Assembly: GCA_024278215.1 (NCBI GenBank)
Contig: JAJRTR010000126.1
Location: 1-10,542 of the forward strand
Direction: 5' to 3'
Length of the DNA stretch: 10,542 nucleotides
From: a bacterium
GTDB lineage: Bacteria; UBP15; UBA6099; JAJRTR01
Every line of letters starts with the position of its first letter. Position 1 is the stretch's first letter. Below are positions 3 through 10,367 of this stretch, piece by piece. The notes below the pieces were generated by a model, which did not search any database, had not been told where the DNA came from, and saw only the letters and a program-made list of their open reading frames with translations. A program made the position numbers and the translations under genes.

Positions 3-1070
3 AACCTTACGCTCACACTTTCGTATGTACCCGGCCCGGTGCTGCGGGAAGAACTGGCCGTGCGGGGCGCGGTTCTGCGTGATCGCGATGTGGACGACAA
101 CCCGGATTTCGCGCGGCTCGACCCTTTCGCACAGCGCCTCAAGCGGATCGAGGAAGGAAAACGCGTGCTGCACGATGTCGTAGAACCGCAGTTCGTCGAA
201 GCGGTTTTCGAGCAGATGAAAAACATCCACAGCGCGGGTTTTATACTCAACGATGTCAAGTATGGCAACATTATAATCGAGGAAAACAGCGGCGAACCGT
301 TCTTTGTGGATTTCGAACTTTCCATGAACTGCACCGGGATGGGAAGCAGCAGTTTCAGAGTGTTGCGAGACCTGGACATCGAAGAATTCAATCTTCATTT
401 CGGTACGGAAAAACCAACATACAGAAGGATCAGGCAGCGCCTGGAAACCGGCTCGATCCCAATGCCGGAAAACTGGTACGCGCCTGTTTACATCGGTGCC
501 GGCATGAAGATCGGCCGTATGTGGGACCCCGACTCCGGGTGGGGAAGATGGCATTATATTCTGAAAGACAACATGCCGCCACTCGAGGGTGCGCGGGTAC
601 TCGATATCGGGTCGAACAATTCGTACCTCGCGCTCCTGATGCTGCAAAGCGGCGCGCGTGAAGCTGTCGGATTCGAGATAAACAGCGGTCGCATCGAGCA
701 GGGCGAATTCCTGAAATCGGCTCTCGAATGGAAAGACAACAGGAAGTATAACTTCAGGTATATTCAGGAAAGTATGGCCGATTTGCCGTCGATGGACCTG
801 GGGAAATTCGACATCGCAACCGCGCTCTGCTCGATATATTACCTTGACGACGAGTCTATCGACCGCGTCATCAGGCATATCAGCACCATATCCGAATATT
901 TCGTGGTTCAGTGCAACACGGCGCGCGATATCGGGCGGCAGGATCAGCATGCTTACGAAAAAGCCGGCGTCGAATATCTCACAGCGGCACTCGTGCGGAA
1001 CGGATTCCCCAATGTCAGAAAAATAGCGCCACGCGGCTATCCCAGACCGTTGCTGATTGGAAGCAAGTAG
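3..1070 (+). CDS. Kinase-like domain fused to a SAM-dependent methyltransferase, 5' end outside the window
   Basis: The reading frame is open to the left edge, and the residues before the first possible GTG (39) read as kinase sequence (YVPGPVLREEL), so the true start lies upstream. Numbering from that GTG, residues 60-95 hold a kinase catalytic loop, NDVKYGN (Asp72, Lys74, Asn77), and a metal-binding DFE (91-93) in place of DFG. This resembles small bacterial LPS/sugar kinases and atypical protein kinases. The ATP-binding N-lobe would be off the window. Residues about 145-343 form a Rossmann methyltransferase: SAM loop VLDIGSNNSY (187-196), acidic Glu213 ending strand 2, and a strand-4 motif at 257-270 (FDIATALCSIYYLDD). 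The approach sequence with tryptophans and PPLEG is reminiscent of DUF1698/CmoB-like methyltransferases. The gene ends at TAG. Phosphorylation plus methylation of a surface glycan is a plausible role but is inferred; the substrate is unknown. Confidence 0.8.
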   Translation, partial: NLTLTLSYVPGPVLREELAVRGAVLRDRDVDDNPDFARLDPFAQRLKRIEEGKRVLHDVVEPQFVEAVFEQMKNIHSAGFILNDVKYGNIIIEENSGEPFFVDFELSMNCTGMGSSSFRVLRDLDIEEFNLHFGTEKPTYRRIRQRLETGSIPMPENWYAPVYIGAGMKIGRMWDPDSGWGRWHYILKDNMPPLEGARVLDIGSNNSYLALLMLQSGAREAVGFEINSGRIEQGEFLKSALEWKDNRKYNFRYIQESMADLPSMDLGKFDIATALCSIYYLDDESIDRVIRHISTISEYFVVQCNTARDIGRQDQHAYEKAGVEYLTAALVRNGFPNVRKIAPRGYPRPLLIGSK

Positions 1071-2444: not shown

Positions 2445-3767
2445 ATGAAGAAGACAAAAGAGGACAAATGTGATGCGTTGATCGTGGGCGCCGGTGTTGT
2501 CGGTTCATACCTCGCGAGAAGGATTGCGGAGGAAGGCCACAAAGTTATTATTGTGGATAAAAGGAGCAGGGCCGAACTCGGCGGCTGGAAAAACAGCGGA
2601 CACAATATCGACAAGGACGTCTTTAAAAAGCTTCCTGTCGAGCCGCCGGCGGAATCGGAAATCGGTGCGCAGGTGGAATATGCGGAGTTTCGCGGGCCGA
2701 ACACTCATTTTAAGTTTCGCCTGCCCATGTACAATGTGCGGCTGGGGCTTTTCACGCGGCGAATCCTGGACGATGCGATGGACGCCGGAGCGAGTTTTCA
2801 GGGTGGAGTCGAGTGTCTCGGCGCGGAAATCGAAGACGGCTGTGTGGTGGGGATAAAAGCCCGCAAGGAAGGTGGCGATGTATCTTATCGCGCGAAGCTG
2901 GTTGTGGATGTCAGCGGTATATGTGCAGTAGTGCGCAACAGTCTCCCGGATGAATTCGGAATCGACAAAAAAATGACGCCGTTCGATTATCTGAATGTTT
3001 ATTCCGAGGACCGCAAAGTCGACCCCGCGCATTGGCCTGTTCCGTTCACATATCATTCCGTGATGCAGGGCTGGAGCGGTTCGAGGCGTCCCGGGGTCAT
3101 AGGGCTGGGGCTGGGGCGTTTTGGATACACGGGAGAAGACCCGGCGGAGGCGTGTCGCGCGCTGGCCCGGCAGGCGCTGAGTGTGCCGGGCGAAGTGATA
3201 TTCAAGACGAGGGCAAGGGTGCCGGTAAGACATCCGCTGCACAAGCTCGCGGCACCGGGTGTTATGATATTGGGCGATGCCGCGTATCAGGGGAAACCGC
3301 TTAACGGTGAAGGCCTGAGCGTCATGCTCTACGCGGCCGAGACAGCTGCCGGTGTCGCCGCCCGCGCTCTGGCAAACGATGATGTGTCGGAAGAATCGCT
3401 ATGGGACTATTCGTATCGTTACCAGCGAAAGTGGGGAAAGCGGTTCGCGCCGATTCACCGGTTGCGCTATGAGCTTTCCCGATTCAGCAAAGAGGAGCAG
3501 GCATTCACAATGGGGTTGGGGCTCTATGGGCCTGAGGAAATGAGTTCGATAATGCTCGACGGCAAACTCGAAATATCAGCTCTGCAACTTGCGAATAAAG
3601 TCCGAAATGGATGGAAGGCGATTTTCAAACCTGATCTCGTTATTCGGCTCGCACGCGCTTCGCTACAGGGCTCGAAGCTGACGGAACTATACAGACAATA
3701 CCCTCGGAAGCCGGCGGATATTACAGATTGGGCCGCGGAAGCCGATCATCTTTTCCGGCATGATTGA
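2445..3767 (+). CDS. FAD-dependent oxidoreductase, geranylgeranyl reductase family
   Basis: This 440-residue flavoprotein has the p-hydroxybenzoate hydroxylase/geranylgeranyl reductase fold. Seen directly: an N-terminal dinucleotide-binding motif GAGVVG (15-20) after a hydrophobic strand, with Asp38 ending the second strand (VIIVDKR) to hold the ADP ribose of FAD; a middle VVDVSG segment (153-158); and the second flavin motif ILGDAA..GKPLNGEGLSVMLYAAE (275-299), the GDA-x-PxxGEG-type signature of this family. No membrane span is evident. Family members reduce isoprenoid double bonds (chlorophyll phytyl chains, archaeal lipids, polyprenols, quinone side chains), and others are halogenases or hydroxylases, so the substrate here is open. 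The start is well supported: AGGAG (2434-2438) lies 6 bases before ATG. The gene is divergent from the GT4 gene and convergent with the LptC/OstA gene. With surface-lipid genes nearby, a role in polyprenyl or lipid maturation is reasonable but unproven. Confidence 0.82.
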   Translation: MKKTKEDKCDALIVGAGVVGSYLARRIAEEGHKVIIVDKRSRAELGGWKNSGHNIDKDVFKKLPVEPPAESEIGAQVEYAEFRGPNTHFKFRLPMYNVRLGLFTRRILDDAMDAGASFQGGVECLGAEIEDGCVVGIKARKEGGDVSYRAKLVVDVSGICAVVRNSLPDEFGIDKKMTPFDYLNVYSEDRKVDPAHWPVPFTYHSVMQGWSGSRRPGVIGLGLGRFGYTGEDPAEACRALARQALSVPGEVIFKTRARVPVRHPLHKLAAPGVMILGDAAYQGKPLNGEGLSVMLYAAETAAGVAARALANDDVSEESLWDYSYRYQRKWGKRFAPIHRLRYELSRFSKEEQAFTMGLGLYGPEEMSSIMLDGKLEISALQLANKVRNGWKAIFKPDLVIRLARASLQGSKLTELYRQYPRKPADITDWAAEADHLFRHD

Positions 3768-3828: not shown

Positions 3829-6462
3829 TCACTTCGTTTCTTCGACTTCCGCTTCGCCATGCTTGATCTCGAAAGCTTCAAGTGTTTTTTCGTTGCCGTC
3901 GTAAACGACGCGCTCCGCGCTGAGTGTGCGGCCTTTTTCATCTTTATATTTCACATTACCTTCGAGAATCGTTTTCTTTGTTATCCCGAAACGCCACATC
4001 CTGTCCGCCGTGGCCCGCGCCCGGCCCTGTACTATCCGGACATTGCCTTCGAGCAACAATTTCTTCTCGTCTTTTCCATACAGTGATTCGAGCCTGTCGG
4101 CAGTGATCTCGACAGCTCCCGCGAGCCGTTTCTTTACTTCCCCCTCGGCATCATTATCAATGAAACCTTCATCGAAAAGCCACCGGCCGCTGCTTTGCGC
4201 AACATAGACATTGCCTTCGGCTACCAGCCGTTTCGCCCGCGTGTCGACTTCGAGACTGTCCGCTCTCAGCTGCTTCAGAGGCTGCTTCACCAGCACATTG
4301 TCCTCGAAGCGCACAAAGCCCGCCTCTTCATTCATGAGCGCTTTGCCGCATGTAATATCTGTCGGTTTTCCGGCGATTCTACGGGCGTCCTCATCCACAT
4401 CGCCGAACCACCCGTACTTATCGAGCCAGCCGCCGCCCTCCTGGTGGAATATGACATCGCCGGTGAAAATGTATTCCTTTTTCAGCCTGTCGATATCCAG
4501 CCGGTCCGCTATGCTCCAGCGGGGCGGACCATCGTCCGCCGCCCTGAGCCGCACACGCCCGCCGGCCTCTCCGGTCGCGGTGCCTTTTTTCTTTTCCCAG
4601 TAGTATTTGAGCGTGTCCGCCTCGAGTTCGAAAGGTTCTCTTCCGGATTTTACGCCAGTCTCAGGCACGCCTTTATCCTTCATTAAAACATTTCCTGTGA
4701 AAACAGCGTATTTCTCTTTTGTGTCGGCGTAAACAGTGTCGGCTGTTATCTCGGTTTCAGGGTCTTTGAGGATCACGCTGCCTGTGCCGGAAGCCGTGTC
4801 GCCGGTGTAATCGACCAACATCGTATCCGCATCGAGCTCGATGTCCCTGTAGAGCACCCGCGCGCGCGCATTTGCATATACACGGTCGGCTTTTTCGTCA
4901 TACGTTATATCGTCGGAAAATACGCGCGCCCGCTCGACAGGCACAGTGCCGGACGCAACTGTCTCGCCGCCTTTTCGCTCCGCATAAACAGTGTCCAGCT
5001 CCTGTGCGGCGTCCTTGTCCACATCCATCTCCACGTAGGCTTTGCCCAGCGCTTCAAACTTCTTTTTCTCTTCGTTGTATTTAAACATGTCGGCGGTGAT
5101 TTTTTTATCGTCCTCGATTGCCACAGGCCCGCCGTACACCGTCCACACGCCTTCTTCGCCTTTGTAGACGGCTTTCGAGCCGAGCAGCCTGCGGTCCTTC
5201 TGCTCGACGATCACATCGCCAGCCGCCGCGAGGTCTTCCGACTCGAAGTCCATCTCCATCGTTTTGCATCTGACCACAGTATCCTGCCGGGCGATTTCTT
5301 TTGTCTTGTCGCCGGCGTCTTCCCTTACAATCCCTTCGTCTTCGAGCCACTTTCCTTTATCCTGGTGCAGCCGCACACCGCCGGACAGAAAAGCCGTGTC
5401 GTTCTTCGAGTCGAGAAAAGCCCTGCCGGAGTTTAAGTCGAGATTATCCTGGTACATCAACATCGGCCCGGGGACCTCGACGTGGCCTTTCTTCCAATAG
5501 TAATAGACTTCCTGAGTCTCGATTTTCGTGTCGCGTTTTTTCAGAGCCGCCGCCGCATCGGCACGCGCGGCCTCCGGGATTTTCGCCTTATCTGCCTCCG
5601 GTTCGCCTTTTTTAACAATATGTACGTCACCGACAGCGCGGGCGTATTTCCTGGCGAAATCCATATACATCTCGTACGACTCGATGTAAAATTTTTCGCC
5701 CGTCAGCGTGACTTTAGGATTGCTGTCATAGCTCATGATCTCGCCCGGCATACGGATTATCTTCCAGCCGGTTTTCGGGAAGCAGCGCATGAACTTCGTC
5801 TTGCCTGAATATTCGATCTCGCCCGCCCGCAACACGAGTTTCTTCAGGTTTTTTTCCTCGATACCCGATTCCGCAATCTCTTTTTTTGTCTTCTTCGAGC
5901 CCGATTCGTTTATGTCCGGAACCTCGACGACAACATCATTTTTCAGCGTCATATCGTCAAGGTCTTCGCCCGTAGCGGTCAGCTCCCGGGCCGAGTATGT
6001 GTTGCCGTCCATTCGCAGTTTAAGCGGGGTGGGTATGAAGAGTTTGTCGGGCTTGCCGTACCACTCGACGCGTTGCGTGCGGAAGTAGTCGCCGTTGTCC
6101 GAGTCAAACATTATGTTGCCTTCAAGCACCACTTCGTCGGTCTCGCTGTTGTATGTGCCGCGCGCCGCGCTGAAGACGAACGGCGGTTTGTCTTTGCGAT
6201 AGTAAATGCCTTTATATATATTCTTTAGATCGTGCCGCTTGCCGTCTTTGCCGACGGTTATCTCGTCCGTCCACACTTCCCACTTCAGCTTCTCTTTTTT
6301 GAGTATCCTTATATATGTGCCTTCGAGTGTGAATGACTCTCTGTCGTGGGTAATATACTTATCGACGTCAATGACGAATGCAGCGATCAGAAAAGCGATA
6401 ATCAGCGCGAAGAAAGCGCCGAATGAAAACTGCCTCAGTTTTTCAAGACTTTCGTATTCCAT
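3829..6462 (-). CDS. Membrane-anchored LptC/LptA (OstA)-like fusion protein with about 15 beta units
   Basis: This 877-residue protein probably carries LPS or a related lipid from the inner membrane across the periplasm. Residues 1-12 are short and basic, 13-31 form one membrane anchor, and the rest is predicted periplasmic. Residues about 40-182 look like LptC, with beta strands such as FVFSAARGTYN and VVLEGNIMFDSDNGDYFRTQ. From about 205 to 865 there are roughly 15 repeating strand pairs of the OstA type, 'I-T-A-D-x-L ... (E/T)GNVxV', clearest at 572-597, 732-756, 786-812 and 847-865. E. coli LptC and LptA are each about 190 residues and separate, so this chain is far longer and seems to combine them. 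Three W-L inserts interrupt the repeats (see repeat entries). It is the second gene of a unit: its ATG lies five bases after the TGA of the membrane glycosyltransferase-like gene, without a visible Shine-Dalgarno sequence, which suggests translational coupling. Family assignment is firm for OstA-like repeats; a single-chain bridge is inference. Confidence 0.85.
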   Translation of the reverse strand: MEYESLEKLRQFSFGAFFALIIAFLIAAFVIDVDKYITHDRESFTLEGTYIRILKKEKLKWEVWTDEITVGKDGKRHDLKNIYKGIYYRKDKPPFVFSAARGTYNSETDEVVLEGNIMFDSDNGDYFRTQRVEWYGKPDKLFIPTPLKLRMDGNTYSARELTATGEDLDDMTLKNDVVVEVPDINESGSKKTKKEIAESGIEEKNLKKLVLRAGEIEYSGKTKFMRCFPKTGWKIIRMPGEIMSYDSNPKVTLTGEKFYIESYEMYMDFARKYARAVGDVHIVKKGEPEADKAKIPEAARADAAAALKKRDTKIETQEVYYYWKKGHVEVPGPMLMYQDNLDLNSGRAFLDSKNDTAFLSGGVRLHQDKGKWLEDEGIVREDAGDKTKEIARQDTVVRCKTMEMDFESEDLAAAGDVIVEQKDRRLLGSKAVYKGEEGVWTVYGGPVAIEDDKKITADMFKYNEEKKKFEALGKAYVEMDVDKDAAQELDTVYAERKGGETVASGTVPVERARVFSDDITYDEKADRVYANARARVLYRDIELDADTMLVDYTGDTASGTGSVILKDPETEITADTVYADTKEKYAVFTGNVLMKDKGVPETGVKSGREPFELEADTLKYYWEKKKGTATGEAGGRVRLRAADDGPPRWSIADRLDIDRLKKEYIFTGDVIFHQEGGGWLDKYGWFGDVDEDARRIAGKPTDITCGKALMNEEAGFVRFEDNVLVKQPLKQLRADSLEVDTRAKRLVAEGNVYVAQSSGRWLFDEGFIDNDAEGEVKKRLAGAVEITADRLESLYGKDEKKLLLEGNVRIVQGRARATADRMWRFGITKKTILEGNVKYKDEKGRTLSAERVVYDGNEKTLEAFEIKHGEAEVEETK
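4093..4191 (-). repeat. W-L insert, copy 3, in the LptC/OstA fusion
   Basis: Residues 758-790 hold SGRWLFDEGFIDNDAEG, then VKKRLAGAVEITADR. It is 82 residues after copy 2 and follows the strand GNVYVAQS. It is closest to copy 2 in its RLAG/RIAG and (D/E)IT ending, suggesting these two share a more recent duplication. Confidence 0.6.
4339..4437 (-). repeat. W-L insert, copy 2, in the LptC/OstA fusion
   Basis: Residues 676-708 hold GGWLDKYGWFGDVDEDARRIAG, then the beta unit DITCGKALM. It follows FTGDVIFHQ, which resembles the strand before copy 1 (VRLHQD). It lies 307 residues after copy 1, measured from tryptophan to tryptophan. Confidence 0.6.
5263..5361 (-). repeat. W-L insert, copy 1, in the LptC/OstA fusion
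   Basis: Residues 368-400 hold GKWLEDEG followed by an acidic stretch, then KEIA and a return to a beta unit (VVRCKTMEM). The shared pattern with copies 2 and 3 is G-x-W-L-x3-G, then Asp-rich residues, then K/R-x-(I/L)-A. It follows the beta unit ending in GGVRLHQD. Confidence 0.6.
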
Positions 6463-6467
6463 ATTAT

Positions 6468-8138
6468 TCAGTCAGTCGAACTTCTGTTTTCAACTTCGCT
6501 ATATGCCGCCCGGAACCTGAAAAAGACAAACAGCAATCCCAGCGCCGAAAGGGAAAAGAACACAAGTAAAGTATATGCCGACCGTGCGACCCAACCGGCG
6601 CTTCGTGGATAGAACTTCGGCAGGTAATACCACCAGAAATCGAGCACCACCGCGCGCCGCGGCCTGTCAAGTTGCGGCACAGCATAGGGCATCAGGCCCT
6701 TCCACGGGAAATCAGACTGCATCTTTTTCCTCAGCGCGCCGGGTTCGAGACGCCTGTCTTTCACTATATGTTTCAACAGCCACCAGTGCCCCGCGAGCGG
6801 TGAAAATTCCGGCACATAATGCGGATTCAGCAGATCGTCTCTTTTGTCGATCCGGCCCGGGTTACCGGAGTCGTAGTACATGTCGTAAGGCACTTGAGTT
6901 TTCATTATCAGAAGATACTCGTTGTAATTCACTACGACACCTAGCGCCTGTACGAATATCGACACGGCTGCCAGAGCCGCCACCGCCGCGACAACTACTT
7001 TATTCAACGACTCACCCGGCGGCGGCGCGAGCAAGTTGCCCAGTGGCAACACCAGCAGCGGTATCAGCGGCACAAGGAACCTTGGTCCCCAGCTATAGTC
7101 GCCGTGCCACTGGTTCCACATCGCGAAAACCGCCACGACCGGCAGGCTGATGAAAATGATCAACCATCCTTCGCCGGGATACCTTTTCACAAAACCCGGC
7201 AAAGCCGCCACCGCCGCTATCAATACCGGCGCATAAAAAAACAGCCCCTTGCCCGAACTCAGCAGCAGGCCGTGAACACCCGTGAGCAGCGGCATGCTGA
7301 AACCGTAAAGCGTCTCTCTGTCCCGGAGCACCATGTATCCCGTCTCGAAAATATCGCCGAAGCGGATGTAATTGTAGCCGAGAATTACCGCCGCCCAGAA
7401 GCCGAGCATAAGCACGAATGATATGAGATCGACAGCCGGCCTGCGCGACTTCTTTGCCGCAAGGCAGACGAGCAGATACACACCGGCCGGCACAATAACA
7501 ACCGCAAGCGCCAGCTTTGTCGCCGCCAGCAGCCCCAGAAAAAAGCCCGCCGACGGCGCACCCGGCAGCCCGCCCTCTCCCTGCCCCACAAGCAGCAGGC
7601 TGTGGAACGCCCCGATCAGCGCCAGCGCTTGCAGCGGCTCGCTGAAAAGCCACTTCGTGTGCGGCCACAACAGTGTGCACAGTCCCGCGACAATCGTCAC
7701 GGTAAGCGACACGCGCGAACCGTATCCCAGCCTCAGGCAGGTCAAAAATATCAGCACGCATATCGCCGCCCCGAGCAGCGGCGATGTAAACGCGGTAACA
7801 AAAAACAGGAACGTGTCTGCATGAACCGATTTGTTGTATTTCGACAGGTAAGACGCGAGCATGTAGGCAGGCGTTTCCGCAATCGACTGGCCGACCCCGA
7901 ACTTCGACACGGGATTATTATTTATGCCCGGCACAAGTACGACATTCGATTCGTGCGCGAGGAAAGCGTCGCCGTCGTCGACCAGGCTGCGCGTGGCGAG
8001 GAACATGCCCCACGCGTCGCCGCCCGTCGGCAGACCCTGTATAGTCAGCGAATAGAGACAGAAAAAAAATACGAAAATCAGCAGCGCCGCGCCCGGCGGA
8101 CCGCTTTTCCCCGCTCCACTATTCAAACCTCTCATCAC
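6468..8138 (-). CDS. Multi-spanning GT-C / GT39-like membrane glycosyltransferase (predicted)
   Basis: This 556-residue integral membrane protein has about 10-12 hydrophobic spans: one near residues 15-35, the bulk between 105 and 400, and a last one at 518-540. The first outside loop carries acidic residues in GGDAWGMF and DDGD (39-57), where GT-C enzymes place their catalytic Asp/Glu. Other landmarks are KFGVGQSIAETPAY (79-92), LLWPHTKWLFSEP (156-168), SSGKGLFFYAPVL (294-306) and WNQWHGDYSWGPRFLVPL (341-358). These recall uncharacterised bacterial and archaeal membrane proteins related to dolichyl-phosphate-mannose protein mannosyltransferases (GT39), which move sugars from polyprenyl phosphates outside the inner membrane. 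Residues 405-517 form a Trp/Tyr-rich periplasmic region. The start is GTG 8138 or the adjacent ATG 8135, without a clear Shine-Dalgarno sequence. It is the first gene of the unit with the LptC/OstA gene. Donor and acceptor are unknown, and a non-enzymatic role cannot be excluded. Confidence 0.75.
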   Translation of the reverse strand: MMRGLNSGAGKSGPPGAALLIFVFFFCLYSLTIQGLPTGGDAWGMFLATRSLVDDGDAFLAHESNVVLVPGINNNPVSKFGVGQSIAETPAYMLASYLSKYNKSVHADTFLFFVTAFTSPLLGAAICVLIFLTCLRLGYGSRVSLTVTIVAGLCTLLWPHTKWLFSEPLQALALIGAFHSLLLVGQGEGGLPGAPSAGFFLGLLAATKLALAVVIVPAGVYLLVCLAAKKSRRPAVDLISFVLMLGFWAAVILGYNYIRFGDIFETGYMVLRDRETLYGFSMPLLTGVHGLLLSSGKGLFFYAPVLIAAVAALPGFVKRYPGEGWLIIFISLPVVAVFAMWNQWHGDYSWGPRFLVPLIPLLVLPLGNLLAPPPGESLNKVVVAAVAALAAVSIFVQALGVVVNYNEYLLIMKTQVPYDMYYDSGNPGRIDKRDDLLNPHYVPEFSPLAGHWWLLKHIVKDRRLEPGALRKKMQSDFPWKGLMPYAVPQLDRPRRAVVLDFWWYYLPKFYPRSAGWVARSAYTLLVFFSLSALGLLFVFFRFRAAYSEVENRSSTD

Positions 8139-9470: not shown

Positions 9471-10367
9471 CTACTTTTTCACCCGCTTTTGTGAAATATG
9501 CGTTTTAACGCCGAACGAATCGATTTTTTTAAGAAAAGAAGAGCTTTCGATAATAGAAGAAAGAGAAACGGCTTCGCAAAAAAGATGGAAGCCTATCAGG
9601 AACGCCAGAATAATCAGCCGGTTCGTTATCGAGAGTTCGATAATGACCAGGAATCCCAGCGCCGAGCCGAGCACATTCGAGCCTGTGTCGCCCATCATGC
9701 CTTTGCAACGAAAGTCCGTCCGTGCATAGACGAGCGTCCACAACAGGAACGGAACAAGCAGGATGTGCGTCAGCGGTGAGAAAGCGGCCCAGTCGCCGAA
9801 CAGCACCCCGATCCACGTGCCGCCGTATATAACCAGGAACCCGGCGGCGAATCCTTTCACCGCACGGCCGGGCCGCACATCCAGCAGGTTTATCGAGTTC
9901 GCCGACATCGCCAGAATCAGCGTATCGGCCAGAGCGGAAAGCGTACCCTGACTATGCCAGAAATAAAAAGATACAAAGAATGACAGCGATATGCCGAAAA
10001 ACAATTTCAGGATTGCCGTGGACACAACGCCGCCCGTGCGGATGCGTGAAAGATGTCCGGCCAGGCCGCCCGCCTCACGGCCCGCCACCAGATCGTCGAG
10101 CATCCCCAGCAGCCCAAAGCCGACAATGACAATGAAAAGCGACGGAATAATACATTTCGGGTCTTCGATGGGCAGAACAGTTACCACGGCAGCCATGAGC
10201 ATCGTCAGCAGCACAAAGCCTGTTCCAAGGCTCGTCGGTATGTTCCTGCCCTGAAAATTTATTCGCACATGGCCCGCGCGGCTCAGTGTTTTCGTCAACA
10301 CTTTAAATACCGTGACACCCGCAACGACCACAGCTACATACCATATTATGATAAATACAATGTTCAT
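9471..10367 (-). CDS. MraY/WecA-type polyprenyl-phosphate sugar-1-phosphate transferase
   Basis: This 298-residue integral membrane enzyme (PF00953 type) is predicted to transfer a sugar-1-phosphate from a UDP-sugar to a polyprenyl-phosphate carrier at the inner membrane, the first step in building lipid-linked glycans. Visible motifs: INFQGRNIP (36-44) in the first cytoplasmic loop; the Mg-binding GMLDDLVAG (88-96, Asp91-Asp92); the catalytic region ANSINLLDVRPGRAVKGF (156-173); and GMMGDTGSNVLG (223-234). The remaining sequence is almost all membrane span. It is shorter than MraY (about 360 residues) and lacks its C-terminal HHHFE motif and WecA's C-terminal His motif, so it is neither classical enzyme; the RPGRA variant after NLLD marks a separate subgroup. 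The start at 10367 has no good Shine-Dalgarno sequence. The sugar is unknown. Confidence 0.85.
   Translation of the reverse strand: MNIVFIIIWYVAVVVAGVTVFKVLTKTLSRAGHVRINFQGRNIPTSLGTGFVLLTMLMAAVVTVLPIEDPKCIIPSLFIVIVGFGLLGMLDDLVAGREAGGLAGHLSRIRTGGVVSTAILKLFFGISLSFFVSFYFWHSQGTLSALADTLILAMSANSINLLDVRPGRAVKGFAAGFLVIYGGTWIGVLFGDWAAFSPLTHILLVPFLLWTLVYARTDFRCKGMMGDTGSNVLGSALGFLVIIELSITNRLIILAFLIGFHLFCEAVSLSSIIESSSFLKKIDSFGVKTHISQKRVKK

Follow-up and report, generated by a model that had tools for sequence, protein, structure and literature searches.

An 877-residue natural fusion of long LptC and long LptA carrying a conserved tryptophan insert

The number of LptA copies in the lipopolysaccharide bridge is not known (PMC8727689). 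The gene at positions 3829 to 6462 of the DNA analysed here encodes a single chain of 877 residues in which an LptC-like, membrane-anchored region is joined to LptA-like units, and it raises the question of whether one covalent molecule makes up the bridge. We refer to the whole stretch of 10,542 nucleotides as the window; it is the entire contig C100 of an assembly of 4.55 Mb that is 95% complete.

Domains, anchor and fold of the chain

The chain and the parts of it that are considered in this section are as follows.

3829..6462 (-): fused LptC-LptA chain, whole coding sequence, 877 aa, ATG start (open reading frame; LptC and LptA models; homologues that cross the junction in G001, G006, G005 and G002)
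6367..6435 (-): predicted N-terminal inner-membrane anchor helix, residues ~10-32 (hydrophobicity read in the sequence)
5935..6351 (-): LptC domain, residues 38-176 (PF06835; TIGR04409)
3853..4365 (-): segment 700-870, modelled as an LptA/LptD-N-type beta-jellyroll (AlphaFold2; PDB matches)

A single hydrophobic stretch is present at the N-terminus (residues ~10-32, from the sequence), and the homologues in G001, G006 and G005 have it as well. The two families to which the first-pass annotation had pointed both match above their cut-offs: the LptC model PF06835 scores 58.6 bits at residues 38-176 (Pfam cut-off 21), and the LptA/LptD_N model PF03968 scores 88.5 bits on the whole protein (cut-off 20.4), with matches repeated along the chain. 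A second LptC model, TIGR04409, gives 76.8 bits (NCBIfam cut-off 38), and the LptA model TIGR03002 gives 75.7 bits (NCBIfam cut-off 71.7). With a profile for the strand-pair unit of OstA, we counted 15 units in the chain, of which 12 score at least 3 bits, as against 0.02 in each shuffled copy; the count of 15 is partly circular because the profile was seeded from 8 repeats of the chain and its seeds are thus of the same family. Therefore, we place the main weight on the Pfam, NCBIfam and PDB-profile matches, which are independent. Together with the unit profile and its shuffled controls, the Pfam and NCBIfam matches bear out the first-pass description of about 15 OstA units and an LptC-like anchored region within 877 residues.

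The repeated character of the chain is also seen when it is compared with itself, where the highest peak is 56 and the null maximum is 18. Its beta-type hydrophobicity alternation exceeds that of all 500 permutations, and its alpha-type alternation falls below the corresponding null. The beta-type alternation is high along most of the chain and weak near residues 196-235, 276-315, 356-395, 476-515 and 676-715; these stretches are possible breaks in the beta track.

To describe the fold of one segment, residues 700-870 were modelled with AlphaFold2 from an alignment of the other repeats of the chain and a Leptotrichiaceae relative (the L016 locus). The model is one beta-jellyroll (pLDDT 78.5, pTM 0.75), and the solved structures closest to it are those of LptA, LptH, LptD and LptC, with Z-scores of 15.2 for LptD, 13.9 for LptA and 12.0 for LptC and a score of 8.1 for the first protein outside the Lpt group. 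As modelled, then, residues 700-870 adopt the beta-jellyroll fold. A profile search of the PDB with five homologues finds LptA weakly (E 2e-4). Single-sequence AlphaFold2 of the full-length chain yields a pLDDT of 33, and a helix at residues 3-34 is the sole feature that we read from it. When the window chain was aligned globally with L016, the result looked unreliable and was left out of the evidence.

The periplasmic part of the chain comprises ~840 residues and corresponds by length to LptC plus ~3-4 LptA equivalents, given that a piece of 171 residues matches one LptA. The earlier estimate of two or three LptA equivalents was thus somewhat low. Counted in residues, the chain amounts to about 4-5 Lpt-domain equivalents. 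At a length of 42-55 Å for each Lpt domain (PMC10353723), it would measure ~17-25 nm if continuous, which is an upper estimate. As a covalent, anchored molecule the chain is not a soluble, separate periplasmic LptA protein, and its C-terminal region should be called an LptA-like domain rather than an LptA protein.

One chain in this order, two genes in other lineages

Profiles of separate genes from other lineages divide the chain into two halves.

4969..6462 (-): long-LptC half, residues 1-498, a separate gene elsewhere (profile of separate LptC genes)
4930..4968 (-): fusion junction, residues ~499-511 (the first profile ends at 498 and the second begins at 512)
3838..4929 (-): LptA half, residues 512-875, a separate gene elsewhere (profile of separate LptA-like genes; PF03968)

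The chain was found in five of the seven genomes of the order. The copies in G000 (the genome of the window), G001 and G006 are complete, and those in G005 and G002 lie at contig ends and are incomplete; neither G003 (92% complete) nor G004 (67%) yielded a copy. The homologues are 31-38% identical to the window protein in the alignment, and one open frame crosses the junction in several genera. A family profile built from the five chain homologues was run over 386 genomes, and in six lineages (G161, G310, G022, G234, G111 and G381) it matches two neighbouring genes, in order. The first gene encodes a long LptC of 575-760 aa with a transmembrane anchor, which matches the N-terminal half of the chain, and the second encodes an LptA-like protein of 600-812 aa, which matches the C-terminal half (the G381 copy is cut by the stretch fetched). 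The two genes overlap by 4 nt in G161, G310, G022 and G111 and lie ~235 bp apart in G381; the start of the second gene is uncertain in G234. Where they can be read clearly, the separate second genes begin by encoding a signal peptide plus an acidic stretch rich in proline, and the fusion has neither. No relative of the chain was found in a scan of viral contigs.

Reciprocal profiles locate the boundary between the halves. The best matches of the profile of separate first genes in the window protein are at residues 55-231 and 251-498, and the profile of separate LptA-like genes matches residues 512-875 with 132 bits (E 9e-42). Weaker cross-matches between the halves are also observed, as expected given that both halves are built from the same repeat. 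With the first-gene profile running to residue 498 and the second-gene profile starting at residue 512, the junction therefore lies at residues 499-511. We conclude that a long LptC and a long LptA are naturally fused in the 877-residue chain; the two-gene state may be the older of the two.

The chain can be set against several known proteins. It resembles LptC (PF06835/TIGR04409) in its transmembrane anchor and its one LptC domain, for which both cut-offs are passed, but typical LptC open frames have ~180-250 aa and the chain extends some 700 residues further. Its likeness to LptA (PF03968/TIGR03002; PDB 2R19, 2R1A) consists of the repeated OstA units and, in the model, the LptA fold of residues 700-870; copies of LptA, however, are free in the periplasm and stack on one another, whereas the LptA-like units of the chain are joined covalently to LptC and carry tryptophan inserts. 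The pairs of long lptC and long lptA genes share with it both halves, their order and the tryptophan inserts, but they are two genes, and the N-terminal segment that the second protein has of its own is missing from the fusion.

Anchored single chains with LptA units also occur in other genomes, where they lie beside lptB. G210, G176 and G083 (loci L100 to L102) and G088 (L103) encode anchored LptC+LptA chains of 680-798 aa by lptB, the reading near lptB being less clean at L103 than at the other three loci. In G088 and G210 the sole PF03968 match outside the fused chain is one LptD-size frame. The Leptotrichiaceae metagenome-assembled genome (L016:7815-10013) encodes, beside lptB, an anchored OstA chain of 732 aa with bacterial Ig-like domains at its end. 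Unlike the window chain, all of these fused chains are without the tryptophan insert, and those of L100 to L103 are absent from the family-profile matches at E <= 1e-8 in a search made without L016. LptC and LptA have probably been joined on more than one occasion, and such recurring fusions suggest that a covalent chain can replace stacking. Long stop-to-stop frames in high-GC genomes (for example, G073 and G046) were considered as further cases of long LptC and rejected after their loci were read.

A tryptophan insert shared by the fused and the separate proteins

The window protein carries three copies of an insert.

5248..5382 (-): tryptophan insert 1, residues ~361-405 (self-comparison; motif search)
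4327..4461 (-): tryptophan insert 2, residues ~668-712 (self-comparison; motif search)
4078..4215 (-): tryptophan insert 3, residues ~750-795 (self-comparison; motif search; AlphaFold2 model)

The consensus of the insert is GxVxxxQxxGxWL, followed by ~20 variable residues that often close with PTxI. The set examined contains 26 copies from 10 genomes, and the tryptophan is invariant among them; this residue was itself part of the search pattern, which included only some of the flanking Q, G and V positions. In the model of residues 700-870, the loop behind the tryptophan of insert 3 (residues 762-780) is of low confidence. The insert is common to the fused chains of the order and to the separate long lptC and long lptA genes. 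No natural LptC-LptA fusion is described in the open-licence papers that were searched. LptC+LptA single chains next to lptB also occur in unrelated lineages; the fused LptCA chain of this order is set apart by its conserved tryptophan insert.

The export machine of the genome and the probable place of the chain in it

Single copies of lptB (counting matches over cut-off), lptF, lptG and lptD are present in the genome, with lptB and lptF on contig C123 and lptG and lptD on contig C107; lpxC is on contig C84. A separate open reading frame of 343 aa with the OstA fold (L031:4337-5368, equivalent to G000:C123:8336-9367) immediately precedes lptB, its stop codon overlapping the lptB start codon. 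It was found by reading the lptB locus, and the whole-genome PF03968 search, for which it lies just under the cut-off, did not list it. Its product has a signal-peptide-like N-terminus and scores 40 bits with PF06835 and 52 bits with TIGR04409. The protein scores better with LptC models than with LptA models, and its name is unsettled.

The lptB locus was also read in G002, G003, G001, G004 and G006, and each of these genomes of the order has a gene at the same place upstream of lptB (329 aa in G002 and 422 aa in G003); the 3' ends of the frames in G001, G004 and G006 are the same as in G003. The 422-aa frame of G003 has no Pfam match at 0.01; its position and a weak family-profile match hint that it may be a gene of the same kind as the 343-aa gene. 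In G111, which has the two-gene arrangement, a third OstA frame is found near lptB, on the other strand. A PF06835 search of the window's genome, an assembly with contig gaps, found no other LptC-type chain with a transmembrane anchor. The genome thus has lptB, lptF, lptG, lptD and an lptA-type gene, and no separate lptC was found in it.

The 877-residue chain is therefore one of a set of OstA proteins and not the sole one. Given the separate OstA gene at lptB and its counterparts in the order, a bridge built without other OstA proteins is unlikely, and the presence of an intact lptA-type gene argues against the chain being the whole bridge, which it probably is not. Of the single-chain bridge proposed in the first-pass annotation, the joining of an anchored LptC-like region to LptA-like units stands; the independence from other OstA proteins is not supported, in view of the 343-aa gene that overlaps lptB and the same layout across the order.

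The reading that we consider likely is that the natural fusion of long LptC and long LptA serves as a bridge track on LptB2FG and that the lptB-linked OstA protein completes the path. The N-terminal helix and the LptC domain would dock on LptB2FG, and the remainder of the chain would form a beta-jellyroll track, perhaps with a continuous groove, that takes lipid A chains outward from the inner membrane. One covalent molecule, the chain, would then account for most of the bridge, and the 343-aa protein would probably extend or cap the track in the direction of the LptD N-terminal domain. The stretches of weak beta-type alternation, the lack of a copy in G003 and a gene position that adjoins no lpt gene and has varying neighbours count against this reading.

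Alternatively, the chain could bridge the whole distance from LptB2FG to LptD, and the lptB-linked OstA protein could be an accessory (a chaperone, a regulator or an alternative piece). Some 4-5 Lpt-domain equivalents of the length cited above (PMC10353723) would suffice for a periplasm, and G088 and G210, in which the fused chain lies by lptB and PF03968 is matched elsewhere only in one LptD-size frame, are consistent with such an arrangement. However, the 343-aa gene overlaps lptB at the operon position typical of lptA, and a gene is retained at that place in other genomes of the order, which suggests a core role for the 343-aa protein; we regard a complete bridge of this kind as unlikely. 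It is likewise doubtful that the fused chain alone acts as a covalent lipid slide from LptB2FG to LptD on which the tryptophan inserts are lateral arms for closing, bracing or anchoring; if the chain did span the periplasm alone, the bridge would need no LptA stacking.

The surroundings of the chain gene bear on a further alternative.

6468..8138 (-): membrane glycosyltransferase of the LA_3751/3752 type, 5 bp upstream of the chain gene (NCBIfam 37 bits, below cut-off)

The glycosyltransferase gene is probably co-transcribed with the chain gene, and a gene whose product is 43% identical lies near the chain homologue in G005. In none of the genomes of the order that were read does the chain gene adjoin an lpt gene, and the genes around it vary from one genome to another. 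These features, and the presence in some genomes of the order of a second LptD-like protein of ~490 aa, would fit a chain that belongs to a second intermembrane bridge for another lipid or glycolipid, with the lptB-linked OstA protein serving lipopolysaccharide. Yet the genome has only one lptF, one lptG and one over-cut-off lptB, the N-terminal part of the chain matches LptC, the partner of LptB2FG, and the neighbours of the chain homologues in G001 and G006 are housekeeping genes; a second bridge thus seems improbable to us. Although other lineages have two genes with the junction at the same place, we reject as virtually inconceivable an assembly or reading error that fused two genes, since one open frame covers the junction in G000, G001 and G006 and, in partial chains, in G005 and G002.

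A fused bridge track completed by the lptB-linked protein, the reading we prefer, has consequences for how the bridge can be studied. When LptC and LptA form one covalent chain, the stoichiometry and the orientation of these pieces are fixed, and a single molecule becomes available on which the continuous-slide model can be tested. Likewise, the gene pair behind the fusion indicates, on genetic grounds, that LptC and LptA act end to end.

In the sister genomes, the second, LptD-like protein of ~490 aa mostly adjoins an S-layer-homology (OmpM-like) protein (L063:4162-5631, L058:4475-5947, L064:3920-5389, L067:2689-4152 and L068:3356-4834). We considered this OstA protein as a further LptA and rejected that assignment because its sequence looks LptD-like. 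Three other genes of the window were also read. Positions 39-1070 (+) hold a kinase-like region and a methyltransferase domain in one open reading frame whose 5' end lies beyond the contig, and positions 9471-10367 (-) encode an MraY/WecA-like transferase that scores under the curated cut-offs. Positions 2445-3767 (+) encode a geranylgeranyl-reductase-like FAD protein, for which the best NCBIfam match is an archaeal-lipid reductase, well below cut-off.
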